A stretch of 64,000 bases of DNA from positions 186,001 to 250,000 of the forward strand of contig NZ_QGNZ01000001.1 of the NCBI RefSeq assembly GCF_003173595.1, read 5' to 3'. The notes below the pieces were generated by a model. That model was not told the origin of the DNA, did no database searches, and worked only from the letters and a program-made list of their open reading frames with translations. Each line of letters opens with the position of its first letter. Positions within the stretch are counted from its first letter, which is position 1. The position numbers were made by a program, and so were the translations under genes. This document shows, piece by piece, positions 17,313 to 59,408 of the stretch. The DNA is from Pedobacter yonginensis (GTDB lineage Bacteria > Bacteroidota > Bacteroidia > Sphingobacteriales > Sphingobacteriaceae).

Positions 17313-18344
17313 CTATTTTAGTTTATTATTCCGCAAAAGGATTGGATGATTTGCTTTCAGCTTTACCTTAATGCGTTTTACCTTTTTGGAAAAAAGGTTT
17401 TTTGCAGTTTCAATTCCCGCACCTGCAATTTGTGCTCCCATAGATTGGTCTAGGGTCATGAGCTGTAGATTGCGAACAGCATCATCAGAGCCACCATTAA
17501 TAGCATCTGTTAATAACGCTTCTGGTGCTTCAATACCACGGATTCCATCTAGGCTATAAACTGATAGGTCAACAGGAACAATCCGATTGCCCAAGCGGAT
17601 AGTTTTCACATCAAGCAACAATCTCTGATTAGCGATATTACAGATACCATAGATAAGCTGCCCCTTTGGCATCATCTGTCCATTCAGTTTTACGCTATCT
17701 AGGAGGCGTAGTTTGATCGTTGAGCCCTGCACTACTCTTTGATTATCTACAACAATTGCGGGTATGGCCTTGAACAAACTATCGGGACTATCTGCAACCT
17801 GATTGATGTATTTTTCCCTTACACGCTCTGGGTGCTGTATGTCCATAATGTTCTGGAGCACGGTGTTTAATTGATCCATCTCGGGGTCTGAACCTTTTCC
17901 CGATTGCATTGATCGCATCAGCATTTCCAATCGGTCGACATCATTTTTCATCCCAGTTGATTGCTGAATAGCTGTGCCTGAAGTATTGGTAGCTTTTGTG
18001 GGTGGTCTTGATAGTTCTCGGTTTAATGCTTGCAATTTTTGGTTAATTTGTTCAGTCTGAAAGTCTTCTCCCGTAGGATTAAATCCAAGCCGATCAGCAA
18101 CACCTGCAATGTCATTTTTGGCAGTATCGTTTCCTTTCAAATTGTAGATGCTCAATTTATCGGAAGGGTCTACATTTTTAAATGTGGCATTTGGCAGTGA
18201 AGTATTAATGCCTTTGCTGGCTGATGTCGAAGGCTCATTTCCAGTTCCTCCACCCATCGCATAAAATGCTAGCGCCAAAAACGGGAGTATCAGTAATGGA
18301 ATTACCAATAGCACCTTTCTTTTGTCTTTTTGTTTTCTTTCCAT
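17313..18344 (-). CDS. traM: Conjugative transposon protein TraM
   Basis: The 343-residue protein begins with a short basic segment and one membrane anchor (VLLVIPLLILPFLALAFYAMGGG, about residues 11-33), a periplasmic low-complexity linker, and a C-terminal domain with TIKLRLLDSVKLNGQMMPKGQLIYG and the closing GNRIVPVDLSVYSLDGIRG region. This is the Bacteroidota TraM (VirB10-like) layout. I start at ATG 18344; a longer frame to 18431 would overlap the upstream gene by 62 bases and place the membrane helix internally. It would link the inner-membrane complex to the outer-membrane pore. Confidence 0.85.
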   Translation of the reverse strand: MERKQKDKRKVLLVIPLLILPFLALAFYAMGGGTGNEPSTSASKGINTSLPNATFKNVDPSDKLSIYNLKGNDTAKNDIAGVADRLGFNPTGEDFQTEQINQKLQALNRELSRPPTKATNTSGTAIQQSTGMKNDVDRLEMLMRSMQSGKGSDPEMDQLNTVLQNIMDIQHPERVREKYINQVADSPDSLFKAIPAIVVDNQRVVQGSTIKLRLLDSVKLNGQMMPKGQLIYGICNIANQRLLLDVKTIRLGNRIVPVDLSVYSLDGIRGIEAPEALLTDAINGGSDDAVRNLQLMTLDQSMGAQIAGAGIETAKNLFSKKVKRIKVKLKANHPILLRNNKLK

Positions 18345-18369
18345 CTTTAAAATTTTTAATTGATTGTGA

Positions 18370-18588
18370 TTAATTGATTGAATTAAATAGCAACATTGTG
18401 CAGTAGCAAGCAAATGCGATACAAAAGCCAAATAAGATATAGGAAATCGTTAGACGTGATAACCTACTTGTTTTGACATTTAAGTAATCTGCTAGATGAC
18501 TTTGCCTGTCGATAATTTTTTTAGCAATTTTCTCTGCGATCGCATCATTAGATACAATTGCTCTTCTTTCTTTTTTAAATAGCCTCAT
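18370..18588 (-). CDS. Small TraL-like membrane protein
   Basis: The 72-residue protein has a charged N-terminal half (MRLFKKERRAIVSNDAIAEK) and a single C-terminal membrane helix (ISYILFGFCIAFACYCTMLLF). Its position between traK and traM is that of traL in CTnDOT-type operons, and its size fits, so it is probably a minor component of the transfer apparatus. Only position and topology support the name. Confidence 0.6.
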   Translation of the reverse strand: MRLFKKERRAIVSNDAIAEKIAKKIIDRQSHLADYLNVKTSRLSRLTISYILFGFCIAFACYCTMLLFNSIN

Positions 18589-18592
18589 TGCA

Positions 18593-19207
18593 TTAATGGA
18601 TTAGTGGTTCATCGCTGTTTTCTAAAGTTTCCCACCGCTGGATAAGAAAGCCGTGCGGATTATTATCACTTCTGGTAACGTTCCGTATATAACCTTGCGT
18701 GATGAGTTTCCTAGATGTTACCGAGGTTGATCTGATCAACTTCTGTGTAGCATAGCATTTGAAATAAAATGGATATTGTTCAACATCAATTTTTATACTG
18801 TCAGCCACAATTTCTTGTGAAATATTAGCAGAAATGAGGTTGTTGTAATAGCCTTGCTCTCGCAGATTATCGTAGGCTTTTTTGGCGCTTTCATCTGCCA
18901 AGTTCAACGCATTTGAAATGTTGTTCTGAATTACCTTGTCGTCTGGATCAAGTGTGAAAAACAGGTGATGAAATGTTTTGATGTGATCCCTAAGCTCTAC
19001 GGGAAGATTATCTTTTCTTTCTGTACTAAACGCTTCAATAGCTTTTCCATTAGCCAAAATGTAAATCTTTGCCTGAACTGTCTTCACCATATCAAAGCTT
19101 TTATAAATCGAAAAGCCAGATATAAATACACATGCTACTATTAAAAAAAGGCTAAATCTTTTAATGTGGCTGAATGCCGTATCGATGTTTTTAAATTGTG
19201 TAAACAT
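18593..19207 (-). CDS. traK: Conjugative transposon protein TraK
   Basis: The 204-residue protein has a short cytoplasmic start (MFTQFKNIDTAFSHIKRFSLF), one membrane helix to about residue 37, and a periplasmic domain with SFDMVKTVQAKIYILANGKAIEAF. The HIK start, single anchor and length match Bacteroidota TraK, a VirB8-like scaffold of the mating-pair apparatus. It lies 18 bases downstream of traJ and 4 bases upstream of the traL-like gene. Confidence 0.88.
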   Translation of the reverse strand: MFTQFKNIDTAFSHIKRFSLFLIVACVFISGFSIYKSFDMVKTVQAKIYILANGKAIEAFSTERKDNLPVELRDHIKTFHHLFFTLDPDDKVIQNNISNALNLADESAKKAYDNLREQGYYNNLISANISQEIVADSIKIDVEQYPFYFKCYATQKLIRSTSVTSRKLITQGYIRNVTRSDNNPHGFLIQRWETLENSDEPLIH

Positions 19208-19225: not shown

Positions 19226-20431
19226 TTATTTGCCCGAAAGTTTATCGTGCTGATGGCTCGAACTATTCTGCTGGTCGGGGAAATAGTCGGAGTTACTAGC
19301 CGCAGCATATCCTTGGCTCATGTTTCGTTTACTGTCTCCAAGCATATCGACCGCCATTCCTGCACCCGCTGAACCTGCACGCATTCCTGTGTGGCCTGTT
19401 GTGCTGATAATAGAATTTACCTTTTGAAGGATAGTATTTCCGCCTCCTGCATGCACAACGTAATTTGCCACATTGGGCACCGAAAAATAGCCTACAATTC
19501 CGATCACAAGAAAAATAAGGTATGCTGTATCAGTGCTACTAAAGAAGGTATCACCCTGCTGATCGATTTGTGAAATATCTAGCTTCAACATATTTTCCTG
19601 TATTTTCCCGAGTATACTCCCAAAGATGTTAGCAATAGGAAGCCATAAGAAAATGTTAATATATCTCGCTAGCCAAACGGTTAAAGTATTCTGAAAGCCA
19701 TCAAAGACCGCAAAGCCAAATACGAGTGGCCCCAGAATGGCAAGTACGATAAGAAAGAATGTTCTTATTGTGTTGATACATAGGCTTGCCGCGGCATAAA
19801 GAACTTCCAAGACCTCGCACATCCATTGTTTTATCGAGTTTCTAAAATTATACGACTGCTTTTCCATAAAGAACTTGATGTCGTTCCCAAGACCTTCGAA
19901 CATTCCCTCATCTTCACGATCAGGGTCTTTCGGATGTGTGTATTTGTACCATTTATCACTGTCGCCCCTTCCGTCTTCACCAATATACATTTCGTAATAT
20001 TTACTTTTTTTAACGGCCTGTTCTTTTCTTTTCAAAAGCAGTTCAATCGCTTTATTGGAATCCTTTACCATTGACCCAGTAGCGGTAACGGTTGGCTGCA
20101 GAATCCCATTCATTACCGATATCACGATAGGAAACATCAGTATGGCCATACCCAATGCAAAGGGGCGCAACAACGGATAGAAATCTATGGGTTCGGTTGA
20201 TGCCATTTGGCGCCATACCCGACTGGCGATGTACCATAGGGCACCAAATCCAGCAATACCACGGGCAACTCCGATTAGCCGACTACAAAGTGGAAGCATA
20301 TCGTTGTACACCCTGTCAAGAACGGGTTGCATTCCAGTTAGCGTTTCCGCCATGCCTTGGGCATTGGAAATTTGGGGCAAAAGCATGGCTGATACCACAA
20401 TGAATGTGGCTAAAAAAAATCTAGTTTTCAT
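19226..20431 (-). CDS. traJ: Conjugative transposon protein TraJ
   Basis: The 401-residue protein has a signal peptide (about 1-24), then ARGIAGFGALWYIASRVWRQMA and FALGMAILMFPIVISVMNGI membrane helices, a charged cytoplasmic loop with EDGRGDSDKWYKYTHP, and a distal group of helices including LAILGPLVFGFAVFDGF and WLARYINIFLWLPIANIFGSI. This is the TraJ (VirB6-like) polytopic layout. The C-terminal 60 residues are soluble and Gly/Ser/His-rich. It would form part of the inner-membrane DNA channel. It starts 5 bases after the preceding gene. Confidence 0.9.
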   Translation of the reverse strand: MKTRFFLATFIVVSAMLLPQISNAQGMAETLTGMQPVLDRVYNDMLPLCSRLIGVARGIAGFGALWYIASRVWRQMASTEPIDFYPLLRPFALGMAILMFPIVISVMNGILQPTVTATGSMVKDSNKAIELLLKRKEQAVKKSKYYEMYIGEDGRGDSDKWYKYTHPKDPDREDEGMFEGLGNDIKFFMEKQSYNFRNSIKQWMCEVLEVLYAAASLCINTIRTFFLIVLAILGPLVFGFAVFDGFQNTLTVWLARYINIFLWLPIANIFGSILGKIQENMLKLDISQIDQQGDTFFSSTDTAYLIFLVIGIVGYFSVPNVANYVVHAGGGNTILQKVNSIISTTGHTGMRAGSAGAGMAVDMLGDSKRNMSQGYAAASNSDYFPDQQNSSSHQHDKLSGK

Positions 20432-22788: not shown

Positions 22789-25254
22789 TTATTGATTTTG
22801 GTTTCTAAGTTCATTTGCTAGTACTGCTATTCCTTTTTGAATGCTGCCATACTTCTCAGTGTATTGCTGGACTTTCATTTTCTCGCTTTCTTCAGTGGTG
22901 TAAGCGAGATATTCCTCAATAGAGACTTCTGTTCGGTAAACTTTACTATGTTGTCCCCCAAGGGAAATGAATACCTCTTTGTATTTTCTATTCGGGTCAT
23001 TAGCCTTATTCATGGAAAGTATTTGGGCCTTTTCTTTTTCGGTAAGCCCAAGCAGTTCCTGTATGCTATCGAACTTGTTTTGATACTTGCTCTGATCGAG
23101 CAGTATTTTACAATCTGAATTATTAATAATTGCCTGTTTAACGATTGGTGAAGAAATGATATCTTCTACTTCTTGGGTAACAACAACTGCCTCGCCAAAG
23201 AATTTTCTAACTGTTTTGAAAAGATATTTGATGTACTCTGCCATTCCTTCTTTAGCAATTGCTTTCCAACACTCTTCAATAAGGATCATCTTACGGATGC
23301 CTTTCAGCTTGCGCATTTTAGAAATAAATACCTCCATAATAATGAGCGTAACGGCTGGGAAAAGTATAGGATGGTCTTTTATCGAGTCAAGTTCGAATAC
23401 AATAAACGGCTCATTTAAAAGATCGAGATTTTCAGTTGCATTTAGTAGATAATCGAATTCTCCGCCTTTATAATACGGATTGAGTACATACAGAAAATTA
23501 CTTATATCAAAGTCCTTTTCCTTTACTTTGGCATCCTCCAGCACCTGCAAATACTCCGATAAAAGAAACTCATAAAATGTGTTGAAACATGGGAATATAT
23601 CCGAATTCTGTTCCAGATGTTCAAAATAAAGCGTTAACGCATTGGATAGGGCAACATATTCTGCACGCTTAAAAGTTTCATCGTCCTTTTTCCATAGTGC
23701 AAGCAGCAGGGTTTTGATACTTTCCTTTTTTTCTGTATCGAGCACATCTCCTTCAGTAAGGTAGAATGGATTAAACTTTATAGGATCTTTTTCTGAATAG
23801 GTGAAATAATAGCCTCCAACCAGATCGCAAAGACCTTTATAGCTATGTCCCACATCCACCAGAACTACATGCGTGCCCTGCTCATAATAACTTCGTACCA
23901 TGTGATTGGTAAAGAATGATTTGCCACTTCCGCTTGGGCCAAGAATAAATTTGTTCCTATTCGTAGTGAAGCCAAGTTTGATAGGCTCATCTGAAATATC
24001 GACATGTACAGGTTTCCCCGATAACCGGTCACCCATACGGATGCCAAATGCGCTAACACTTGAACGATAGTTACTTTCGAGGTTAAAAAAACATGTAGCC
24101 TGCTCAACGAAAGTGTCAAAGGTATCGTTCATCGGAAAATCAGCTTGATTGCCAGGCAACCCTGCAAACCATATTTGCGCCTGCCCATCTGTTTCCTGTT
24201 TAGCAACAGCATCCATTTGCGCCATAGCAGAAGAAACAATATTTTTGAGGTCTTTGGCTTTGCCCACATCATCAGACCATGCCAGAACATTAAAATGTGC
24301 TTTGATCGGTAATCGCTGTGACGCAATGGCTTCATTCAAAAAATCATTTACCGAATCTCGGCTTATTGCATTTTCCCTTGAATAGCTTGATAGGGATTGC
24401 AACCGTAATTTTTTAGCTTCAAGTCTTTTTATCGTCTTCTGCGAATCTTCTATGAAAATGTACTGATTAAAAATGTGGTTGCAATTGAGTAACGTTCCCA
24501 ATGGACTTGCAAACCCGATACTGAACTTTGTACGGTCTGTACTGTATTTGTCGTAATTTATTCGACTACCGCAAAGTGAGGGAAGATCCTCAGTATCAGA
24601 TAAAGTATAAAGTTCTAAATGTTTATCACCAATCCTTATATTGTCCTTGATGTGAATATCCCGAATAATAGGCTGTGAACTTGATTCAAGTAAAAAGCAA
24701 TATCGTTCAATAATTCCAGAGTGGTTAGCGGTGCCTGCAAGTCCATCATCACCAATTCGTGTAAGTGAAACAAAGTTGCCGTCCGTCATAATCCTTTCAA
24801 ATTGCCCAGCACAGTCTAAGAAATCCTTATAAAGAACAGGGTTGATTGTTTGTACAGGGACAATTGATTTGCGAAGAATATTGCTGTAGACTGAACTTGA
24901 CAGTTTTCTATCTTTCGGCTTTTTGGTCAAAAAAATATAACATCTGTGGTTCAAACATTCTCTTTCATTGAAGAAATTTTCACTGCTTCGTGAAAGAAAA
25001 CTATTGTCCGAACTTTCAAAGTCTGCCTCATGTTTACCTTCGATAAACCAATCCTGTTTGTGGAATATAGAATGCTGTGGTAATACTTTGATAGCCTTTA
25101 CCCATGTTTGATGATACGCTTCATAATCCCGATCAGAAAGTGTAAATATCTCTGGTAACTTAACTTCGTAAGCTATTGTGATATCGCCTTGTGCCGAAAG
25201 GATGCAATTGTTCTCCACCTTATAGATTGGCAAAATTTTTCTTGCTTCTACCAT
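22789..25254 (-). CDS. traG: TraG-family conjugation ATPase (VirB4-like)
   Basis: The 821-residue ATPase carries Walker A G439-PSGSGKS-446 and Walker B with ILIEECWKAI near residue 667. A downstream RKFFGEAVVVTQEVEDIISS segment precedes a conserved tail. The N-terminal 400 residues are the TraG/VirB4 partner-binding domain. This is the cytoplasmic motor for pilus or channel assembly in Bacteroidota conjugation. Its length is normal for the family. It sits 2 bases after traF and within the traE-F-G order typical of CTnDOT. It is distinct from the coupling protein at 51.8 kb. Confidence 0.95.
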   Translation of the reverse strand: MVEARKILPIYKVENNCILSAQGDITIAYEVKLPEIFTLSDRDYEAYHQTWVKAIKVLPQHSIFHKQDWFIEGKHEADFESSDNSFLSRSSENFFNERECLNHRCYIFLTKKPKDRKLSSSVYSNILRKSIVPVQTINPVLYKDFLDCAGQFERIMTDGNFVSLTRIGDDGLAGTANHSGIIERYCFLLESSSQPIIRDIHIKDNIRIGDKHLELYTLSDTEDLPSLCGSRINYDKYSTDRTKFSIGFASPLGTLLNCNHIFNQYIFIEDSQKTIKRLEAKKLRLQSLSSYSRENAISRDSVNDFLNEAIASQRLPIKAHFNVLAWSDDVGKAKDLKNIVSSAMAQMDAVAKQETDGQAQIWFAGLPGNQADFPMNDTFDTFVEQATCFFNLESNYRSSVSAFGIRMGDRLSGKPVHVDISDEPIKLGFTTNRNKFILGPSGSGKSFFTNHMVRSYYEQGTHVVLVDVGHSYKGLCDLVGGYYFTYSEKDPIKFNPFYLTEGDVLDTEKKESIKTLLLALWKKDDETFKRAEYVALSNALTLYFEHLEQNSDIFPCFNTFYEFLLSEYLQVLEDAKVKEKDFDISNFLYVLNPYYKGGEFDYLLNATENLDLLNEPFIVFELDSIKDHPILFPAVTLIIMEVFISKMRKLKGIRKMILIEECWKAIAKEGMAEYIKYLFKTVRKFFGEAVVVTQEVEDIISSPIVKQAIINNSDCKILLDQSKYQNKFDSIQELLGLTEKEKAQILSMNKANDPNRKYKEVFISLGGQHSKVYRTEVSIEEYLAYTTEESEKMKVQQYTEKYGSIQKGIAVLANELRNQNQ

Positions 25255-27432: not shown

Positions 27433-27880
27433 AGCTTTATGTATTTAATTACCTTTTTGAGAGCGATGCCTAAGCTTATTATAACCAAAATTAGGAGAAA
27501 GCTAAGACTAGAAAGGTGATTTAAAATACAATCGAACCTTTATTAGGCCGAATTTTAAAAACATAGTTAAGTAGTAAAAAATGTAGCTCTAATAGCTGTA
27601 TGCATCGTTTTTTTATAAAAATGTTGATGCTTTCTCATTCAGCTTGAATTATGATTTCCTCAAACAAAATATATAATATAACTTGTGATAAAAATCACAA
27701 TCGAGCATCTCTAAAAAGAAATTGGTGCGGAGAAATTCGTTAAAAAAAAACTTAGAATTTATTGAGGATGTTGGAAGTTACTCGCCAATGTCAAAATAAA
27801 TCTTCTATTTCGTCGTTTTTTTTATATCACGATAAGAGAAACATATAATTAACAGACGCTCTTTGCTAAATGTTGTATAT
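27433..27880. other. 448 bp divergent intergenic region
   Basis: No gene is visible. The region separates leftward rteC from the rightward Crp/Fnr gene and must contain both promoters. It is very AT-rich and holds the TGTGA-N6-TCACA palindrome listed separately. Confidence 0.6.
27683..27700. promoter_or_regulatory. Crp/Fnr-type operator
   Basis: TTGTGAT (27683-27689) and ATCACAA (27694-27700) form a perfect palindrome with an AAAA centre, containing TGTGA-N6-TCACA, the classical CRP half-sites. It lies 181 bases upstream of a Crp/Fnr-family gene and 251 bases upstream of rteC, so autoregulation or control of rteC is possible. Confidence 0.55.
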
Positions 27881-28505: not shown

Positions 28506-29921
28506 ATGAAGTATATGAAAAAGAGCATCCAATTTTATATCCTATTCATTTTAACATTCTCCGCCTGTAAAAAGGAAACAAAAATTGATAAAGAATTACC
28601 TGTAAAAGAAACCATTACACTTAATGAAGCACTTAATTGGCTAAGTAAACAAGCAGATACATCTTCGCTCGTTAGTAAATACCCAATTAGGTCAACTAAT
28701 GCTAAATCTGTTGCAACTAACGACGGAAACCGAATAATAATTACTATTTCTGGGCAACCCATATATCAGAATATCAAACAAGGTTATAGGCAACTATCTA
28801 TAGAACGAAATTCCAAGACTAACCAAATTGAAGGAAAATTCATTGAAATTATCCCAGATGCGCTTTATTTTCAGGCAAAGCAGAAAGTAGATCAAAGTGA
28901 TTTCACAGGAAGGATTTTAGTTTATGACCTAAATTATAATTTGGAAAAAGGTTCAATTTATAACAATGGTAAACAAATAGGAGAATCACGCCCTTCAACC
29001 AAAAGTGAAAAGCTTGCATTTACTCAAAATAAACCTCAATTACCAATATTAGCTACGTTCGAACAAAATTCTACATCAGCCAATGGCAAAATATCTATGG
29101 CACGGATGATCGAAACCTGTGCATGGCTACAAACGAGTTATGTAGATGCCGAAGGTGTTTTTACGGTTCATGCAGAAAGATATTGTGAATATTTTTATTT
29201 AGATGATGGTGGTGGCGGTGGCAATTACAATGATGGCGGAATAAACTACGAAACTCCAAGTGGCGGAGGAGGAGGTGGTGGAAGTACGAGCACCCCAGCA
29301 CCTCCGCCACCCTCAAACATACCGGGAGAAAACAATAACAATGTTGACCCTAAAAAAATGGTTGAGTGCTTTGGCAACGTGCCAAGTGCAGGTGCTGCAT
29401 TTCAGGTTAAAGTTTTGGTTGTTGAACCAATGCCGGGAACATTTTTTAATGTTGGCCCCAATAGTTTTGGACACGTAGCTATCCAACTGACAAAAGTAAA
29501 TGGAGATCGATCAGTAACTCAAACATTAGGTTTTTATGGTTCAGGTTCTGGACTTGATAAATTAATTTCTCCATCCACTATTAAAGATAACGGTGATATT
29601 GAATATAATATGAATGCCAATTATTTCACTGATGCATCTAGCTTTCAAAAGATTTTAGACTACGTGGCTAACCCACCAACAAACTATCATTTTACAGATT
29701 TTAATTGTGCCGCATTTGTTTACAATGCAGCTAGGGCTGGAAATCTCCCTGTTCCAAATCCAACTACTACTTTTGGAATTGGAGGGCCTGGTGGTGTAGG
29801 CACAGGTATGTCTCCTGCGGGATGGGGGTCAGCACTTCGTTCAGAAAAAGCAGCTAATCCCAAAGCAAATATTGGTGAAGGTGGCGGTACTGCCCCTGCA
29901 AGTAAAGGGGAATGTAAATAA
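28506..29921 (+). CDS. Lipoprotein with Gly-rich linker and papain-like C-terminal domain
   Basis: The 471-residue protein has a lipoprotein signal (FILTFSAC, Cys 21). A variable beta-rich N-terminal domain (about 35-235) follows, then a Gly/Pro low-complexity linker (about 235-280). The C-terminal domain has a GHVAIQL motif (H323) and a later DFNCAAFVYNAARAG motif (C401). His before Cys is the order of permuted NlpC/P60 or LRAT-like papain folds, so a hydrolase or acyltransferase activity is plausible. I recall related lipoproteins in Pedobacter-like genomes but no characterised member. It may be an exported effector with the small membrane protein downstream as partner. Confidence 0.55.
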   Translation: MKYMKKSIQFYILFILTFSACKKETKIDKELPVKETITLNEALNWLSKQADTSSLVSKYPIRSTNAKSVATNDGNRIIITISGQPIYQNIKQGYRQLSIERNSKTNQIEGKFIEIIPDALYFQAKQKVDQSDFTGRILVYDLNYNLEKGSIYNNGKQIGESRPSTKSEKLAFTQNKPQLPILATFEQNSTSANGKISMARMIETCAWLQTSYVDAEGVFTVHAERYCEYFYLDDGGGGGNYNDGGINYETPSGGGGGGGSTSTPAPPPPSNIPGENNNNVDPKKMVECFGNVPSAGAAFQVKVLVVEPMPGTFFNVGPNSFGHVAIQLTKVNGDRSVTQTLGFYGSGSGLDKLISPSTIKDNGDIEYNMNANYFTDASSFQKILDYVANPPTNYHFTDFNCAAFVYNAARAGNLPVPNPTTTFGIGGPGGVGTGMSPAGWGSALRSEKAANPKANIGEGGGTAPASKGECK

Positions 29922-51761: not shown

Positions 51762-53768
51762 TCACATAGAAATTGCCACCCCATTGGATGAGTTATCCTC
51801 ATCTTCATTTTTCTGTTGGGTAACACTACCTATCTTTTTTAACTCAACTTTAAAAATCTCATCAATATCTGACTTTATCTGTAGGTAGTTTTCGTGTATA
51901 TCGGTTTCGCTAACTTGTTTTACAATAGGAATCGGTTTATAGTTTTCTTCTTCATATTTAATGGCGTTGTGGTCGTTCTGAATTTCACTATGAAAAATCT
52001 TAAGTTTGATTTTTTGATCAGGATTGTCGGCAACAATACCTACAAACTCTCCAGATGATAATGATGAAATTTTAGAGGCAGGTATGGCAAATTCTAACTG
52101 CAACGACTTTGAAATTGAAGTATCAGAACTGTTAATGCTCAAACTTGTTCGATCTTGCATAATCTTGCCAAAAGTTTCCGACAGCTTTTTAGCAGTACTT
52201 CCAGTCACTTGACCGCTGATTATATTCCCAACGATACCGCTGATTACGTCTGCCTGCTCTGAACCATAATCTTTTTTAAGTTGGCTAAAATCTTGAACGG
52301 CTAAAGTTGTGGCAACCTTATTACTTCTTGCCGTTGCGATTAGGCTATCCATATTATTGAAATAAATCGTTGGAAATTCATCGAACACCAAACTGCTTTT
52401 TAATTGATCTTTTCTGTTCACCAATTTTATCATCCTTGAAATATAAAGCGAAAGCACTGCGCCATAAGTCTGTATTTTTTGAGGATTATTACCAACGCAT
52501 ACGATTTTAGGTTCAAGCGGATTATTTACATCAAGTGTGAAATCGTTTCCGCTAAGTACATAATAGAGTTGAGGCGATGATAGTCTTGCCAATCCAATCT
52601 TGGCACTCGCAATTTGCCCCTCTAATTGTTCTTTTGCCTTATTTTGAAATGCAGATACGAAAGGATTGATCAACACTTTTATTTCCTCTTCCCGTTGTAG
52701 GACAGCAAACAAAGGGTCGTAATCGGCCTGCATTAATTCAATAACATGTGGCAACGTACAATATTTCCCATTCTCATATTTTCGTAAAAACCATATTATT
52801 GCCGTTAGAAAGTTAATCGGACTCTCAACAAAAAAATCTCCCTGTTTCTTTATCCAATCCCTATTTAGGCCTAACATTATGGTACGGCTTGCCTCAGTCG
52901 CATCGGTTATATCTTCCATTCCCGCTGGGTCAAGTGGATTGCAGCGATGCGTTCTGTTTAGATCATCAAAGTTAATAACATAAAATGAGGGTTTAATTTT
53001 ATAGCTCTTTTGATATTTCAATAATTTATTGTAAGCAATTTTACTTAGATCATCATATTTAAAATCATAGAGAAACATTGAAAATCCTTTTTTAATGTGC
53101 TGATCTATAATATGTCTGATTACGAAATAAGATTTACCTGCTCCCGGAGTTCCCGCTACAAGCATTCCACGAAAAGGATTGATAAAGTTGATCCAGCTAT
53201 CACGAACTTTGTCTTTTAACCGATACTTAGCCGGAAGATTAATTGAATACTCATTTTCCAATAATCGTTCTTCCTGTGGAAAGGTTTCATTTTCATCGTT
53301 AAATATGTCCTTGCTTAGATTTTCTTTTATCAGTCTTGATAACAAACCTCCACCAGTAAGAATTAAAACGTAACCTAAGGACGTAATAGTTATATAAAAA
53401 ATCGCAACTGTTGTAGGGGCGCTGTTAATGTAAAAACAAAAAACACTAGTGAAATAACAAACCAAACCAAATGCTACGTAGCTAGATATTGATATGATGT
53501 TTATTTTTTCATCTTTTTTGCCCTTTGCCCCAATAAGAGAGATAAACAAGCAAAGAAGTACTGCTAGTTTAGGTATCAGAAAGCCATTAAACAGCCCTGT
53601 TTTTGAAATATTTGCTATGATGTTATCTGTAATTTCTGCTGTAAATCCCCATTGTTCAAAAGCTATATAACAGCACAAATAGAAATGTATGCTTAATATA
53701 AACAAACTGAGTAAACGTGTAAAATCAATTATTTTTCTTAGTCCCTGTATGTCTTCTCCTGTATTCAT
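51762..53768 (-). CDS. Type IV coupling protein (VirD4/TraG-like)
   Basis: The 668-residue protein has several N-terminal membrane helices (to about residue 148) and a cytoplasmic ATPase domain with Walker A G206-TPGAGKS-213. Walker B is LVFDEFPTIYF near 455, followed by ATARSNKVATTLAVQDFSQL. This is the T4CP that passes the relaxase-DNA complex to the transfer channel. It lies 9 bases downstream of the relaxase gene. It stands about 25 kb from the VirB4-type traG, with the metal cargo between them. Confidence 0.92.
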   Translation of the reverse strand: MNTGEDIQGLRKIIDFTRLLSLFILSIHFYLCCYIAFEQWGFTAEITDNIIANISKTGLFNGFLIPKLAVLLCLFISLIGAKGKKDEKINIISISSYVAFGLVCYFTSVFCFYINSAPTTVAIFYITITSLGYVLILTGGGLLSRLIKENLSKDIFNDENETFPQEERLLENEYSINLPAKYRLKDKVRDSWINFINPFRGMLVAGTPGAGKSYFVIRHIIDQHIKKGFSMFLYDFKYDDLSKIAYNKLLKYQKSYKIKPSFYVINFDDLNRTHRCNPLDPAGMEDITDATEASRTIMLGLNRDWIKKQGDFFVESPINFLTAIIWFLRKYENGKYCTLPHVIELMQADYDPLFAVLQREEEIKVLINPFVSAFQNKAKEQLEGQIASAKIGLARLSSPQLYYVLSGNDFTLDVNNPLEPKIVCVGNNPQKIQTYGAVLSLYISRMIKLVNRKDQLKSSLVFDEFPTIYFNNMDSLIATARSNKVATTLAVQDFSQLKKDYGSEQADVISGIVGNIISGQVTGSTAKKLSETFGKIMQDRTSLSINSSDTSISKSLQLEFAIPASKISSLSSGEFVGIVADNPDQKIKLKIFHSEIQNDHNAIKYEEENYKPIPIVKQVSETDIHENYLQIKSDIDEIFKVELKKIGSVTQQKNEDEDNSSNGVAISM

Positions 53769-53777
53769 AATTTTGCT

Positions 53778-55028
53778 TTATCGAGTTATCCCTCTTCTTT
53801 TTTTCTTCTTCTTGCCGATTGTTGGTTTAGAATCATTTTCAGTTTTACCTAGTAAATCATTTAGATAATTGGTATTTGAAATTGCTTCTAAGTATGCCTG
53901 TGGTTGAGCAATGCCTATTATAAAATTTGTCTTGCATTGCTTATTAGGTTTGAGATAAGTTTTAGGTTGATCCTTATCTTTGATTAATTCATTAATGACT
54001 TTAGCACTGTAGGACTTTCCTAGTGAGCTTCCATTAAAGACGGTTTTGTGGATATGGTCAATAAATGTTGCTCCATAGTTATATCCCTGTTCATTCTTTC
54101 TGAAAACTATATCTACGCCTTGCTTTCTCAACTCAGTTAAAAGAGTTTTTTCAGTGATAGAATCATACTTCCTTAAAGTTCTGTCTATTCGGCCCATCAA
54201 ATCCTGTTTATAAGGCTTTCTTTTTTCTGTGTTTCCTACGAATTTATTTTCAAGATTTCTAAGAGTAGGTTTGCTATAAAACGAGCTGGCTTTAATAGGA
54301 ACACCTATTTTATGTCCAGTTTGATTCAAAACAGCATATTGTAGTCCTTTTTTTTGGAACATTGCAGTGTCGTCTTTTCCTCTGTCTGCGATTACATTGA
54401 ATAGATTGAGAACTGCATTAAATTCGGCAACTGAAGTAAATTTGTAACTGTCCACCACCGCATTAACAACATTACTGATTGCCCGCTTTGTTGGAGTACG
54501 ACCATAGCTAATGATATCTGGATTTACTGGCTTTATTGCAGGCATAGGCTTAAACTTTTTACTTTCTGCCACAATTAAATTGAAATCTTTTTCAATCTGC
54601 TTTCTGGCTGGCTCTGATAATTCTCTGCCAATATTATGTAGGTTGATCGATTTGCCGTCCCGCAGGATGCTTGTGGTGGCAATATGGATATGCTGATGCG
54701 CTACATCACTATGCCTGTAAACTAGAAATGGTTGCTCATCGAACCCAATCAGATCCATATATCGGATGGCAATCTGTTGCATTTTAGCGTTATCAATTTT
54801 CTCGCTTGCCTCAAAATTTAGTGATATATGTAGTGCGTTGGTTTTTACGCTAGACCTTAATTCAGTAAGGTGCTTAAACCTTGTGATTTTATGTTGGATG
54901 TTCATTTTCTCGATATCGCCTGCAAAACCGCTTGCCAAAATCAAGCTAGCACTTCCTTCAGAAACCTTGTTCTCATTATAATGTAAGATGCCCCTGATGC
55001 TTTTACCGATCTTTATTTTTGCAACCAT
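53778..55028 (-). CDS. Relaxase (MobB-type, relaxase/mobilization nuclease domain)
   Basis: The 416-residue protein has a MOB-family relaxase domain: a conserved start (VAKIKIGKSIRGILHYNENKV), LHISLNFEASE, and the metal-binding HQHIHIATTS with H111, H113 and H115. The catalytic Tyr is not obvious to me; Y18 in ILHYNENKV is the candidate. The C-terminal half is basic and ends KKKKRRGITR. It nicks oriT and pilots the strand. It overlaps the accessory RHH gene by 16 bases, and the palindrome cluster upstream of that gene is the likely oriT. Confidence 0.9.
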   Translation of the reverse strand: MVAKIKIGKSIRGILHYNENKVSEGSASLILASGFAGDIEKMNIQHKITRFKHLTELRSSVKTNALHISLNFEASEKIDNAKMQQIAIRYMDLIGFDEQPFLVYRHSDVAHQHIHIATTSILRDGKSINLHNIGRELSEPARKQIEKDFNLIVAESKKFKPMPAIKPVNPDIISYGRTPTKRAISNVVNAVVDSYKFTSVAEFNAVLNLFNVIADRGKDDTAMFQKKGLQYAVLNQTGHKIGVPIKASSFYSKPTLRNLENKFVGNTEKRKPYKQDLMGRIDRTLRKYDSITEKTLLTELRKQGVDIVFRKNEQGYNYGATFIDHIHKTVFNGSSLGKSYSAKVINELIKDKDQPKTYLKPNKQCKTNFIIGIAQPQAYLEAISNTNYLNDLLGKTENDSKPTIGKKKKKRRGITR

Positions 55029-55420
55029 TTTTCCGCTAATTGTGAAATTATAACCAGTAATTTTTCAACCCTCTCATCAACATTCTTGTACAGTTCAGCG
55101 ACCTTCATTACATAAAAAGCTCGATGAGTTTCTACCTTGTCTTGATTAAATGTTCTGGTAATCTGATTGATATTGATGCCGATTGCTTTCAGCTCTTTTC
55201 TAATCAAAGCCATTTCTTCCATTGGAGCATTCAAAGAATTATCTTGATGTAATAGTTTGATCTTACGGTTTGAAAGAATTCTACGGATAACTTCAGCCAT
55301 GGAAGCGCTACCACTTTCAACCCGCATTTTTTCTAACTTGTTGAACGTAGTTTCAGTTATCCGGACGATAACATTTTTAGTTAATAATGCATCTTGATTT
55401 GTCGCTCTCTTTCTTGGCAT
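55013..55420 (-). CDS. Relaxosome accessory protein (ribbon-helix-helix, MobC/MobA-type)
   Basis: The 135-residue protein begins with a basic segment and a ribbon-helix-helix (NVIVRITETTFNKLEKMRVE, then ASMAEVIRRIL). A conserved ELKAIGININQITRTFNQ stretch follows, characteristic of MobC-like relaxosome proteins. I use ATG 55420 instead of GTG 55429. It would bind oriT and load the relaxase. The gene starts 25 bases from the palindrome cluster. Confidence 0.88.
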   Translation of the reverse strand: MPRKRATNQDALLTKNVIVRITETTFNKLEKMRVESGSASMAEVIRRILSNRKIKLLHQDNSLNAPMEEMALIRKELKAIGININQITRTFNQDKVETHRAFYVMKVAELYKNVDERVEKLLVIISQLAEKWLQK

Positions 55421-55444
55421 ATACAGCACCTTTTAGAAAGTTCA

Positions 55445-55536
55445 GACTTCACGAGTTCCGAGTGAAGTCCTGGCCGTAAGGACAGCAAAGATATTTTTGC
55501 ATGCAAAAATACATCTTTGCTAAGTCCACGCGGACT
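55445..55536. other. Cluster of inverted repeats, candidate oriT
   Basis: Four inverted repeats lie end to end: GACTTCAC/GTGAAGTC (55445-55452, 55462-55469), GTCCT/AGGAC (55467-55471, 55479-55483), the perfect 18-base palindrome ATTTTTGCATGCAAAAAT (55493-55510) enclosed by GCAAAGAT/ATCTTTGC (55485-55492, 55513-55520), and AGTCC/GGACT (55523-55527, 55532-55536). It is upstream of the relaxosome genes, where oriT is usually found. Confidence 0.6.
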
Positions 55537-55646
55537 ACAACGCTGACCTCCCGAAAGTGAATTGAACTTCGGTTAATTGTGATGTAAAGATTGTGTACTT
55601 AAAAATTGCCAAAGCGCAAGTATGGTGGTAGGTGCGGAAAGTTTAT

Positions 55647-56486
55647 TTACCAAGTAATGATGCCGTTTTCAACTTTTCTTGATTCAAATTCATTTATCTG
55701 GCGAAAATCCTTTTTATCATTTTCTACACGATAAACTTTAAATTCATCTCTAAGTGCACTGATAAGTTCGATGTTATTATCGTTAATAAATCTGTTGTTA
55801 AATGCGAAATTAACACCCTGTCCATCAAATGGTACGCTCGGATAATAGATAGCATCAACATTCATTGGTAATTCAAAAAGAGCTATGTTACAGTAGGCTG
55901 ATGTTATAAGATAAGTTAGCGGATCTTCCTTACCAGATTTTCTAAACCTTTCAAACAAAAATCGATAAAATAAGATATTCGCCTCTTTGAACTCCCCATC
56001 GTATTGATTGATAAAATCATCCAAGACTGGCCCGTGCTGTAGATCAAATTTTGAGGCTCTATTTTCTGCATCTGGAGATGTGATAATTAATGTTGTAAAA
56101 GGACGTTTGACAATCCATCGGCCAATGGTTACGTAAAGATTTTCATCTATTTCTTTTTCCTTGGACCAATAATCTACCAATTCTAAATATGATGTGGGTC
56201 TATTTTCTGCACAGTAAAATTTGGATTGGTATGGTCTATTGCATCTTGCAAAAGACTTAATAGCTTCGTGAGGTGCTAATGAAATGTCATTCTTAGATGT
56301 GTAAAATACATCTTCAAAATGTGTTCTGGCTCTGAAAACCTCAATATTATCATGAATGTCATAAATAAGTATTGGAAGTTGCTGAATGATCTTATATGCC
56401 ATAAAAGCTTTCTCGTAAGCAAACTCATCATTTGGATCAATTGCTTCTAATTTGTCTATTGCTTTCTGAACATTCTGTATAGTCAT
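55647..56486 (-). CDS. RES-domain-like protein
   Basis: The 279-residue protein contains EVFRARTHF near residue 48 and RCNRPYQSKFYCAENRPTSYLE near 81-102. This resembles the RES fold, in which an early Arg, a middle Tyr and a Glu act on NAD. RES toxins consume NAD+, but this copy is longer than the usual about 150-residue domain and no Xre-type antitoxin gene is adjacent. The C-terminal part includes ITSAYCNIALFELPMNVDAIYYPSV. Function is uncertain. It lies between the oriT candidate and the recombinase genes and has its own upstream region. Confidence 0.5.
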   Translation of the reverse strand: MTIQNVQKAIDKLEAIDPNDEFAYEKAFMAYKIIQQLPILIYDIHDNIEVFRARTHFEDVFYTSKNDISLAPHEAIKSFARCNRPYQSKFYCAENRPTSYLELVDYWSKEKEIDENLYVTIGRWIVKRPFTTLIITSPDAENRASKFDLQHGPVLDDFINQYDGEFKEANILFYRFLFERFRKSGKEDPLTYLITSAYCNIALFELPMNVDAIYYPSVPFDGQGVNFAFNNRFINDNNIELISALRDEFKVYRVENDKKDFRQINEFESRKVENGIITW

Positions 56487-56934: not shown

Positions 56935-57123
56935 ATGCAGGATAAAAAGCGTTCGATAACTCCTCAAAAAGCTATAGAAATACTTAATAACCACGGCACA
57001 ACTGTAACGTTTGAAGAAGCAAAAATAATTTTGGATTTTATGTATAATTTTGCTATATTGTCTGTAAATCAATTAGTTAAAAATAAATATTCGAATAGCG
57101 ATGGGAGCAAAAAATATAGTTGA
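56935..57123 (+). CDS. Small protein preceding the serine recombinase, 62 aa
   Basis: The 62-residue protein reads SITPQKAIEILNNHGTTVTFEEAKIILDFMY, with two helices. Similar short genes commonly precede serine recombinase genes in Bacteroidota elements; I recall the pattern but no function. Its last 23 bases overlap the recombinase start, suggesting translational coupling, so it may help regulate or direct the recombinase. Confidence 0.65.
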   Translation: MQDKKRSITPQKAIEILNNHGTTVTFEEAKIILDFMYNFAILSVNQLVKNKYSNSDGSKKYS

Positions 57124-58774
57124 TCAGATTGTTTATCGTGATAGAAGAACACATAAACCAGAGCAAAGAAATAAGGCAAACAGCTTAAAGACTATACAGC
57201 AAACAACCGCCTTTTTATATATCAGAGTAAGTACAGACGAACAGGCTGACAGAGGTTTTTCGCAAAGAGACCAAGATCAGCGCTTGCATGAATATTGCCA
57301 ACGGAATAATATAAAAGTGGGAAGGGTAATCTATGAAGATTATTCTGCCAAGACATTTAAAAAGCGCCCTGCTTGGTCTAAACTACTTTTAGAGTTGAAA
57401 AAGACTAAGGGTAGGAATTGTAATTTGATTTTATTTACCAAGTGGGATCGATTTAGTAGGAATACAGCCAACGCTTACAATATGATCGACACGCTTACAG
57501 GTTTGAATATAGAACCAAATGCGATCGATCAATTATTAGATTTAAGAGTACCTGAAAGCCGAATAATGCTAGCTGTATATATTTCTATGGCTGAAGCTGA
57601 GAATATTAGGCGAGGAATGAATGTGGTTGTTGGTATGCGCAGGGGTAAGTTAGAAGGAAGATGGATGGGAAAAGCGCCAGCAGGTTATATAAATAAGATC
57701 CGTGAAGATAAATATAAGTACATCGATTTAATTGAGCCAGAAGCTTCCCACATGAAATGGGCATTTGAGGCAATTGCTTCAGGCCTTTATCCGACAGACC
57801 ATGTTTGGAAACTTGCTAGTGATAGAGGAATGAAATGTAGAAGGAATACTTTTTGGGCAAACATTCGAAATCCTGTTTATTGCGGAAAGATCATTGTTCC
57901 ACCAGATGAGAATAATGGAATGTTTCTTTCCGACGGAAAGCATACTCCCCTCATAAGTGAGAGGTTATTTTGGGAGGTTCAGGATGTTTTAGATGGCCGA
58001 AAAAAGGTTCAGCAAGTGAAAATACAAACCCCAGAAAATTTACCTCTCAGAGGATTTTTGTATTGTCCAGATTGTGGCCACACGTTAACTGGAAGTGCTT
58101 CTAAGGGCAGGCCTGGCTATTATTATTACTACCACTGTAAACCTCCATGTAAAGCTAGGTTTAAAGCTGAAGAATTGAATAAGGACTTTGTTCGTGAATT
58201 GCAAAAGTTTGTTCCGAAACCTGGAATGGCAGAATTATACAAGCAGGTTGTTTGTGACACCTTTGGTGATAATAAAAAGAATTTTGATGAAAAAAGAAAA
58301 CAGTTAGTTTCTGAGATTTCAGATCAAAATAATATGCTGACCAAAATAAGAGCATTGCTGTTGTCTGATGATATTGATGTAGCTGATTATAAAATTATGA
58401 AATCAAAGTGTGAAGAGAAGATTGTAAGACTTGAAGCACAGCTAAAAGAGTTAAAAGATCAAGCCAATGCAAAGACAGATGTAAGTGATATCGTTGATGA
58501 AGCTTTAAAAAGGTTCAAAAAGCTCACTGAATTATATTCTAAAGGCGATATTGAAGCAAAACGTTATATTATCGGTTCGATCTTTCCAGAAAAATGGACT
58601 ATTTTAGAAAATAAAGGTCGAACCGGTAAAGTCAATCTTGCAGCGCATCTTATCTATCAGATTAACAGTTTGTTATCGCATAAAAAAACCGGAGTTAGAA
58701 CTAAAATTAGAACTAACTCCGGCTTGGTACCCAGTGCCGGAGTCGAACCGGCACGGTTTCCCACAGGTGTTTGA
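57101..58774 (+). CDS. Large serine recombinase (resolvase/recombinase/zinc ribbon)
   Basis: The 557-residue protein has a resolvase domain with catalytic Ser in YIRVSTDEQ (S44), WDRFSRN and the AEAENIRRGMN helix, followed by a recombinase domain. A zinc ribbon follows with CPDCGHTLTG and a later HCKPPC near 320-348, then a coiled coil (about 390-450). This is the integrase-type large serine recombinase. Its last 15 or so codons (from VPSAGVEPARF to the TGA) are read antisense through the tRNA-Leu gene, and the tRNA terminator also lies within the frame. The native protein may therefore end differently when the element is a circle. Confidence 0.92.
   Translation: MGAKNIVDQIVYRDRRTHKPEQRNKANSLKTIQQTTAFLYIRVSTDEQADRGFSQRDQDQRLHEYCQRNNIKVGRVIYEDYSAKTFKKRPAWSKLLLELKKTKGRNCNLILFTKWDRFSRNTANAYNMIDTLTGLNIEPNAIDQLLDLRVPESRIMLAVYISMAEAENIRRGMNVVVGMRRGKLEGRWMGKAPAGYINKIREDKYKYIDLIEPEASHMKWAFEAIASGLYPTDHVWKLASDRGMKCRRNTFWANIRNPVYCGKIIVPPDENNGMFLSDGKHTPLISERLFWEVQDVLDGRKKVQQVKIQTPENLPLRGFLYCPDCGHTLTGSASKGRPGYYYYYHCKPPCKARFKAEELNKDFVRELQKFVPKPGMAELYKQVVCDTFGDNKKNFDEKRKQLVSEISDQNNMLTKIRALLLSDDIDVADYKIMKSKCEEKIVRLEAQLKELKDQANAKTDVSDIVDEALKRFKKLTELYSKGDIEAKRYIIGSIFPEKWTILENKGRTGKVNLAAHLIYQINSLLSHKKTGVRTKIRTNSGLVPSAGVEPARFPTGV
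58689..58722 (-). terminator. tRNA-Leu terminator
   Basis: CCGGAGTTAG (58689-58698) and CTAACTCCGG (58713-58722) form a perfect 10-pair stem. Read leftward it follows the tRNA 3' end by 2 bases and is followed by TTTTTTT. It lies inside the recombinase frame on the other strand. Confidence 0.85.
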
Positions 58775-58807
58775 GACCAGCGCGTCTACCAATTCCGCCA
58801 ACTGGGC
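58725..58807 (-). tRNA. tRNA-Leu (anticodon CAA)
   Basis: The 83-base gene folds with acceptor GCCCAGT/ACTGGGT (first pair G-T), encoded CCA, T-arm GCCGG-TTCGACT-CCGGC, a long variable arm typical of leucine tRNAs and anticodon loop CTCAAAC with anticodon CAA. The anticodon stem CTGGT/ACCTG has one T-T mismatch at positions 28-42. The gene is transcribed leftward toward the recombinase gene and is the probable insertion site. Confidence 0.93.
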
Positions 58808-58898
58808 ATTCTTATTTGGACGGGATGCAAATGTAGATAACGAAAAGCTAAATCACAAAATTATTTTCATTTAGATTTCGATTTTTTTATAATTCGCT

Positions 58899-59210
58899 CT
58901 ATATGTTTGTGTTGGCATCCAAAGGCCTTTCGTCTTTAAGTTTTTTATCTACCACAAATGGAGCAAATGGAAGTAATGAAGCAAGAAAAATCAATACAGC
59001 TTTGCCAAATTTCCATTTTTGTTCTTGCCAAGCCAAAACCAAGGTTGCCGCATACAGCACAAATAGCAAACCGTGCGCCCAGCCTGTATATTTCACCACC
59101 TTATCGTAGTGGAGCAAATATTTTATAGGCATGGCCACAAATAATAAAAGCAGATAAGAAATGCCCTCTGCTACAGCTACTTTACGAAAAATTGAAATCG
59201 AACTACTCAT
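58899..59210 (-). CDS. DUF3817 membrane protein
   Basis: The 103-residue protein has three membrane helices and the DUF3817 pattern: FRKVAVAEGISYLLLLFVAMP, KYTGWAHGLLFVLYAATLVLA and VLIFLASLLPFAPFVVDKKL. The family is an uncharacterised small integral membrane family. It appears to be chromosomal flanking sequence, leftward, next to the tRNA gene. Confidence 0.85.
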   Translation of the reverse strand: MSSSISIFRKVAVAEGISYLLLLFVAMPIKYLLHYDKVVKYTGWAHGLLFVLYAATLVLAWQEQKWKFGKAVLIFLASLLPFAPFVVDKKLKDERPLDANTNI

Positions 59211-59408
59211 GCTTGTTGTTTGACAAGTGCCTAAAATAAAGTAAAGACTTTGGCAATCAAAAACTAAAAAAGGATTTTACACTATACTGTTTAAACAGCC
59301 CTATTCATGCAAGTGTGCGTTTTATCACAAAAAATAAAACAAATCCTATTCAGCTGGGTTTTCTATCTGTGTTAACTGCTTAATTATTAACGCCTAAATG
59401 AAAAAAAA

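Follow-up and report, generated by a model that had tools for sequence, protein, structure and literature searches.

A conserved four-hairpin unit, very probably the origin of transfer of a CTnDOT-type ICE in Pedobacter, and its copies away from mobilisation genes

Does the cluster of inverted repeats at positions 55445-55536 of the Pedobacter DNA analysed here (a stretch of 64 kb, hereafter the window) mark an origin of transfer (oriT)? The sequence-only reading had guessed as much from the density of the repeats and their position upstream of a relaxosome accessory gene. Direct reading and a repeat search recovered the four tightly packed inverted repeats that it described: GACTTCAC-9-GTGAAGTC at 55445-55469 (hairpin D), GTCCT-7-AGGAC at 55467-55483 (hairpin C), the long imperfect arms AGCAAAGAT...ATCTTTGCT at 55484-55521 (hairpin B) and AGTCC-4-GGACT at 55523-55536 (hairpin A), the order A-B-C-D running 5' to 3' on the mob coding strand. 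At the core of hairpin B is a perfect palindrome, TATTTTTGCATGCAAAAATA, which spans 20 bp (55492-55511) instead of the 18 bases first reported and is the only perfect palindrome longer than 14 bp in the window, the next longest having 14 bp. The gap upstream of the accessory gene, in which the repeats lie, measures 217 bases, as described, if that gene starts at the GTG at 55429; from the ATG at 55420, which the MPRK/MSRK start common to relatives suggests as the actual start, it measures 226 nt.

Repeat density alone is weak evidence, because one of 6391 stepped 92-nt segments of the window (at 29371) ties with the repeat region on a crude hairpin score and several others come within one or two points of it. 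The predicted fold of the 217-nt gap is better than that of 199 of 200 shuffled sequences, both as DNA (z -3.35) and as RNA (z -2.78).

Downstream of the repeats, on the minus strand, lies a three-gene mob operon encoding an accessory protein (55013..55420; MobA in Bacteroides naming, MobC-like, Pfam MobC_2 at 7.1e-9), a relaxase with a MobA/VirD2 nuclease domain (53778..55028; MobB in Bacteroides naming, PF03432 at 4.1e-26) and a coupling protein with YWFCY and T4SS-DNA_transf Pfam domains (51762..53768; MobC in Bacteroides naming). MobC is the only one of the three proteins to pass its curated NCBIfam cut-off (Bacteroid_MobC, 1165 bits), the accessory protein and the relaxase matching Bacteroid_MobA (1.6e-8) and Bacteroid_MobB (6.3e-84) below theirs, and a phmmer comparison of the relaxase with PDB sequences returned nothing up to E 1. 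Residues Y17, H106, D108, H111, H113 and H115, which we take to be those conserved in the relaxase family, are kept in at least 97% of 43 relaxase sequences.

The element that carries this operon is a CTnDOT-type ICE of the Pedobacter genome, with minus-strand genes for TraM (17313-18431), TraK (18593-19207), TraJ (19226-20431) and TraG (22789-25254). On the other side of the repeats, a plus-strand serine recombinase gene (57101..58774; Pfam Resolvase at 2.4e-23, and Recombinase) overlaps with its 3' end a minus-strand tRNA-Leu(caa) gene (58725..58807), the presumed attachment site; an attachment-site search for a direct repeat of the tRNA-Leu end found none convincing. In 10 of 11 relatives compared, the tRNA-Leu neighbourhood (58725-59284) adjoins sequence matching G000:C1:174059-175481, which in the genome of the window lies 10.5 kb to the left of the window and in the orientation opposite to that of the relatives. 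This location suggests that the ICE is probably about 69 kb long, and the orientation suggests an inversion that includes the ICE relative to those 10 relatives. Between 33917 and 51306 the window also holds metal-handling cargo: a multicopper oxidase, a metal P-type ATPase and an AcrB-type efflux pump in a single frame with an outer-membrane efflux protein.

Of 301 genomes of the family, 153 have a relaxase match at E <=1e-20 and 44 a blastn match to the 217-nt gap. The sequences upstream of the relatives' accessory genes share a common four-hairpin plan, and a covariance model (R1) built from 19 such sequences (alignment A2) finds matches in 117 of the 301 genomes; in the window it delimits the conserved A-B-C-D unit to 55441..55542 on the minus strand (88.9 bits). 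Among the matches listed, 77 reach at least 54 bits, and these strong matches include 57 with a relaxase gene downstream on the same strand, at a distance from the unit of 399-424 nt in 56 cases and of 786 nt in the remaining one.

Base pairing within the unit has been maintained by compensatory change. We counted pairs in a model-based alignment (A4) of 55 copies, 54 of them distinct, whose 55 sources had been chosen so as to limit duplicates; fitting to the covariance model favours pairing, and 19 of the 55 rows had also built that model. Paired cells amount to 92.5%, versus 74.7% (sd 0.6) in shuffles; two-sided change occurs at 27 of 33 pairs (shuffled mean 18.5), the changes at three of these 27, in the outer helix of B, coming largely from ambiguously aligned rows. 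Cells with two-sided change number 334, versus 95 (sd 11) in shuffles, and the covariation score is 0.497 versus 0.160. Structures slid along the alignment pair only 34.5-49.3% of cells, and a separate RNAalifold run on A2 predicts 27 pairs, 16 of them compensatory; both agree with the covariation result. By hairpin, two-sided compensatory change affects five of the six modelled pairs of A and each of the eight modelled pairs in the two helices of D (at least one such change per pair); the outer helix of B is paired in 98.4% of cells and its inner helices in 98.6% and 99.4%; and C is paired in 79.9%, one of its pairs being mostly a C-T/T-C mismatch. Hairpin D encloses a conserved loop, CTCGGAACTCG on the mob strand. 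The distances among oriT units correlate with those among relaxases (Mantel r 0.351, 0 of 2000 permutations, n=43 of the 55), a correlation that may be due in part to joint inheritance. Two copies, L107:10034-10130 and L108:10020-10110, end after hairpin C and are possible deletion junctions.

The plan extends beyond the family. In all seven more distant loci tested, comprising four Bacteroidales elements, a Spirosoma plasmid, a Chitinophaga locus and a Sphingobacteriales MAG, five of them picked from the 161 plasmid records in which a relaxase matched, a four-hairpin unit scoring 18.4-46.5 bits lies upstream of the relaxase region. The units of the four Bacteroidales mobABC operons (L115, L116, L117 and L119) are more diverged and sit upstream of mobA, with scores of 30.8-46.5 bits; one of these loci, on a 55.7-kb B. 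fragilis record (L115), is probably, to judge from its name and size, the tetQ element CTn214 mentioned in an excerpt of PMC10865816. Of 395 genomes drawn from the phylum, at least 16 contain a model match; the figure is a lower bound because the model is adapted to a single family and strict filters were applied. A relaxase match follows downstream in 12 of the 16 loci inspected, three of them at 21-27% identity, and the other four (L145, L147, L150 and L151) have no relaxase match within 1.5 kb. The arm GCAAGATGT (or GCAAGGTGT) and the loop box CTCGGAACTCG or CTCCGAAGTCG recur in the distant copies, among which the closing pair of the loop box also swaps between G-C and C-G; some of these copies have, by eye, no separate hairpin C. 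A blastn search of plasmids with one relative's unit gave no match, and a search for related loci among genome contigs found only three.

Taken together, the conserved structure, its position, the mob homology and a nic-like box lead us to regard the repeat cluster as very probably the oriT of the CTnDOT-type ICE, a reading based on comparison of sequences. What had been a guess from density and position now draws support from the compensated pairing of the four-hairpin unit and its constant spacing to relaxase genes, from the presence of the unit 5' of mobA in Bacteroidales, from the MOBP-like nic box and from the copies that lie away from mob operons, in elements that are probably mobilisable. 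As expected for a MobABC-type ICE of Bacteroidota, homologous accessory, relaxase and coupling-protein genes adjoin the unit, in the same order as in the CTnDOT/CTn341-type transposons of Bacteroides. The differences from those transposons are that the Bacteroidales relaxases are about 29-34% identical to that of the window, that hairpin B is longer in the Bacteroidales copies and that their loop box reads CTCCGAAGTCG (L115, L116, L117) or CTCCAAAGTCG (L119) in place of CTCGGAACTCG. The oriT of CTn341 is reportedly the subject of a 2010 paper by Peed. Literature searches, judged by titles and the opening lines of abstracts, brought up no description of the conserved four-hairpin fold, or of relaxase-less oriT elements in Pedobacter.

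Unexpectedly, candidates for such relaxase-less elements appear among the strong matches. Twenty of the 77 strong matches (among the matches listed) had no listed relaxase, and we examined 18 of them by tblastn in loci of up to 20 kb and two in loci obtained earlier. Eight proved not to be orphans: G209 carries a complete mob set, six (G194, G166, G232, G282 C8, G105 and G236) retain a whole or partial accessory gene, with the relaxase cut or missing or a contig end reached, and one lies at a contig end (G015). Around the remaining 12 of the 77 listed strong matches, loci of about 20 kb, which reach about 10 kb from the copy, contain no match to the relaxase, the accessory protein or the coupling protein. 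Hairpin D is lost in two of the 12 (G282 C6 and G239 C4). Relaxase domain PF03432 is absent from the genomes of two (G081 and G260), and the other 10 have a relaxase somewhere in the genome.

Nine of the 12 mob-less copies are accompanied by a serine recombinase gene that overlaps a tRNA gene. In seven (G035, G203, G191, G081, G145, G260 and G290) a downstream serine recombinase frame, broken in G145 (locus L102), overlaps tRNA-Met. These seven loci (L098, L099, L100, L101, L102, L103 and L105) belong to the genus of the window and have differing DNA upstream: between L098 and the other six, similarity sets in 6-246 nt ahead of the oriT unit, and no DNA is shared further out. The oriT of L098 is nearest (distance 0.078-0.098) to those of L085, L083 and L081, which carry mob genes, the relaxase of L085 being cut. 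In G282 C6 the recombinase overlaps tRNA-Ser and lies 5 kb away. The loci of G200 C1, G185 and G239 C4 showed no recombinase gene at a tRNA gene. The genome of the window itself has a mob-less copy (G000:C1:318684-318785, or L095:9984-10085), where a serine recombinase gene overlaps tRNA-Leu(gag) and the same stretch contains the Hachiman defence genes HamA and HamB, the HamB frame being 573 aa long and ending at position 590 of the 721-position profile. By column, this oriT and the one at the genome's second mob operon (L112, on contig C12) are 91% identical; its identity to the oriT of the window is 59%.

The 12 mob-less copies look like relaxase-less oriT hitchhikers, and the elements that carry them are probably mobilisable. 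Elements lacking a relaxase that mimic an oriT have been reported from Firmicutes and Proteobacteria (a 2017 review, PMC5704250, of which section 10 is drawn on here), and an excerpt of PMC11389934 gives them the name iOriT. Like iOriTs and mobile genomic islands of the MGIVflInd1 type, the present copies have an ICE-like oriT and, in nine of the 12, a recombinase of their own, and no relaxase was found nearby in loci of about 20 kb; unlike the reported iOriTs, they have serine recombinases that overlap tRNA genes and belong to Bacteroidota.

These copies bear on the alternatives to an oriT. The unit could instead encode a structured leader RNA at the 5' end of the mob transcript, acting as an attenuator or riboregulator. 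The unit stops 20-25 nt short of the accessory start, covariation is present, the RNA fold is better than those of shuffled sequences as given above, and SGI1 mobilisation requires a small RNA, according to the part of PMC9299015 consulted. Against this, Rfam with lenient thresholds has as its best hit in the unit mir-2778, a chance match of 21.1 bits against a gathering threshold of 86, and in 17 relatives it reports only a tRNA, in one of them; moreover, copies exist with no mob gene, or with different genes, downstream. G-T pairs are also rare, with 37 of 1775 cells overall and 0 of 324 in hairpin A, where GC-to-AT changes are nonetheless numerous, and a DNA structure therefore fits better than an RNA. 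As to which DNA strand folds, the 72 C-T/T-C mismatch cells versus 14 G-A favour the plus strand, a clue in conflict with the 37 G-T versus 21 A-C cells, which favour the mob strand. We consider a leader RNA improbable.

Less probable again is an operator or promoter through which the accessory protein would regulate its own operon, with the oriT elsewhere. On the mob strand the unit carries TATCTTTG (55493-55486), which resembles a -7 box and presumably fits that of Bacteroidota, but this box is lost in GCAAG-type relatives, and 10 of the 12 copies without mob genes retain the full unit. MobC of plasmid RA3 does autoregulate its operon (PMC4175270, in the part seen), and the operator and oriT roles are compatible. 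That the palindromes arose by chance in an AT-rich gap has a vanishingly small probability and is already refuted: 0.175 perfect palindromes of at least 20 bp are expected per 64 kb (7 in 40 order-1 simulations) and another segment ties on hairpin score, but the unit is conserved and compensated in 55 copies.

Returning to the oriT, hairpin B is likely to be the relaxase recognition hairpin, and a putative nic box, TACATCTTTGC (TACATCTTTG^C), occupies 55510..55520 on the plus strand. An inverted repeat adjoining a conserved nic-like sequence is present, as in oriTs generally. MOBP relaxases such as RP4 TraI and VirD2 need ATCCTG, with the consensus (C/T)ATCCTG(C/T) (PMC3772185, in excerpt), and nic lies eight nucleotides 3' of the hairpin in the relaxase substrates described in the portion of PMC4814116 available. 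On the strength of the conserved arm directly 3' of the inner hairpin, together with the MOBP consensus and spacing, we place the nick at 55519/55520 on the plus strand, a position that we hold with reasonable though far from full confidence. As in the MOBP oriTs of RP4, Ti VirD2 and H. pylori tfs4, a hairpin is followed after about 8 nt by a nic-like box; unlike them, the window has four hairpins in a row, a nic box that can also pair within the longer hairpin, and the box CATCTTTGC versus CATCCTGC. The box departs from the exact consensus (C/T)ATCCTG(C/T) by one substitution and one extra T (ATCTTTG vs ATCCTG), and this extra T makes the exact nic uncertain; in many relatives the box is TACATCTTGC / CATCTTGC.

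A deletion in one relative (G233:C6, near 9946 of locus L114) ends close to this position. A tra gene is there joined to window position 55514-55516, in the middle of the oriT: tra homology ends at window 20602, inside a 215-aa gene that adjoins traJ, is traI by position and has no NCBIfam match, and resumes at 55514, with two shared bases. The missing DNA corresponds to 34.9 kb of the window; its end is 4-6 nt away from the predicted nick, whose 3' side is retained, and the locus then matches the window up to 55594. The junction, a single case and not exactly at the predicted nic, fits breakage or faulty rejoining at an oriT; microhomology joining would explain it too. Elsewhere in the window, 13 bases at 27857-27869, CGCTCTTTGCTAA, are identical to the G233 junction sequence and resemble the nic box, possibly by chance.

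In the mechanism that we propose, the accessory protein (MobA) and the relaxase (MobB) would assemble on the hairpins, and the relaxase would recognise hairpin B and, through Tyr17, nick the plus strand at CATCTTTG^C, just 3' of the inner hairpin. It would stay on the 5' end after the nick while the coupling protein (MobC) would hand the strand to the T4SS of the element, so that the serine-recombinase side would enter first and the mob operon last; on the arriving strand, hairpin B would re-form and the relaxase would rejoin the ends. The nic position, the strand, the direction of transfer and the role of each hairpin are all inferred. Given the nic strand, the presumed leading region would start 3' of nic, at 55543..55646 on the plus strand. 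Further into it, at 55647-56486, the window has a RES-domain-like gene (Pfam RES, below the cut-off).

An oriT of this kind was already known, and the shared fold and the oriT-only copies are of more interest than the oriT of the window itself. On balance we lean towards a single hairpin-coded oriT family in Bacteroidota, in which the fold is kept and the sequence drifts, and which in Pedobacter has been captured by relaxase-less, tRNA-targeting serine-recombinase elements that mimic ICE oriTs. If this is true, these iOriTs imitate ICE oriTs, one of them that of an ICE resident in its own genome, and can carry cargo such as Hachiman anti-phage genes, so that defence islands would travel on the relaxases of other elements. 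The covariance model of the family allows oriTs and oriT-only elements to be found in Bacteroidota genomes, the latter being missed by searches for relaxase genes alone, and it opens two questions to direct test: the site at which MobB-type relaxases nick, and the possible hitchhiking of oriT-only defence islands on ICEs in this phylum.
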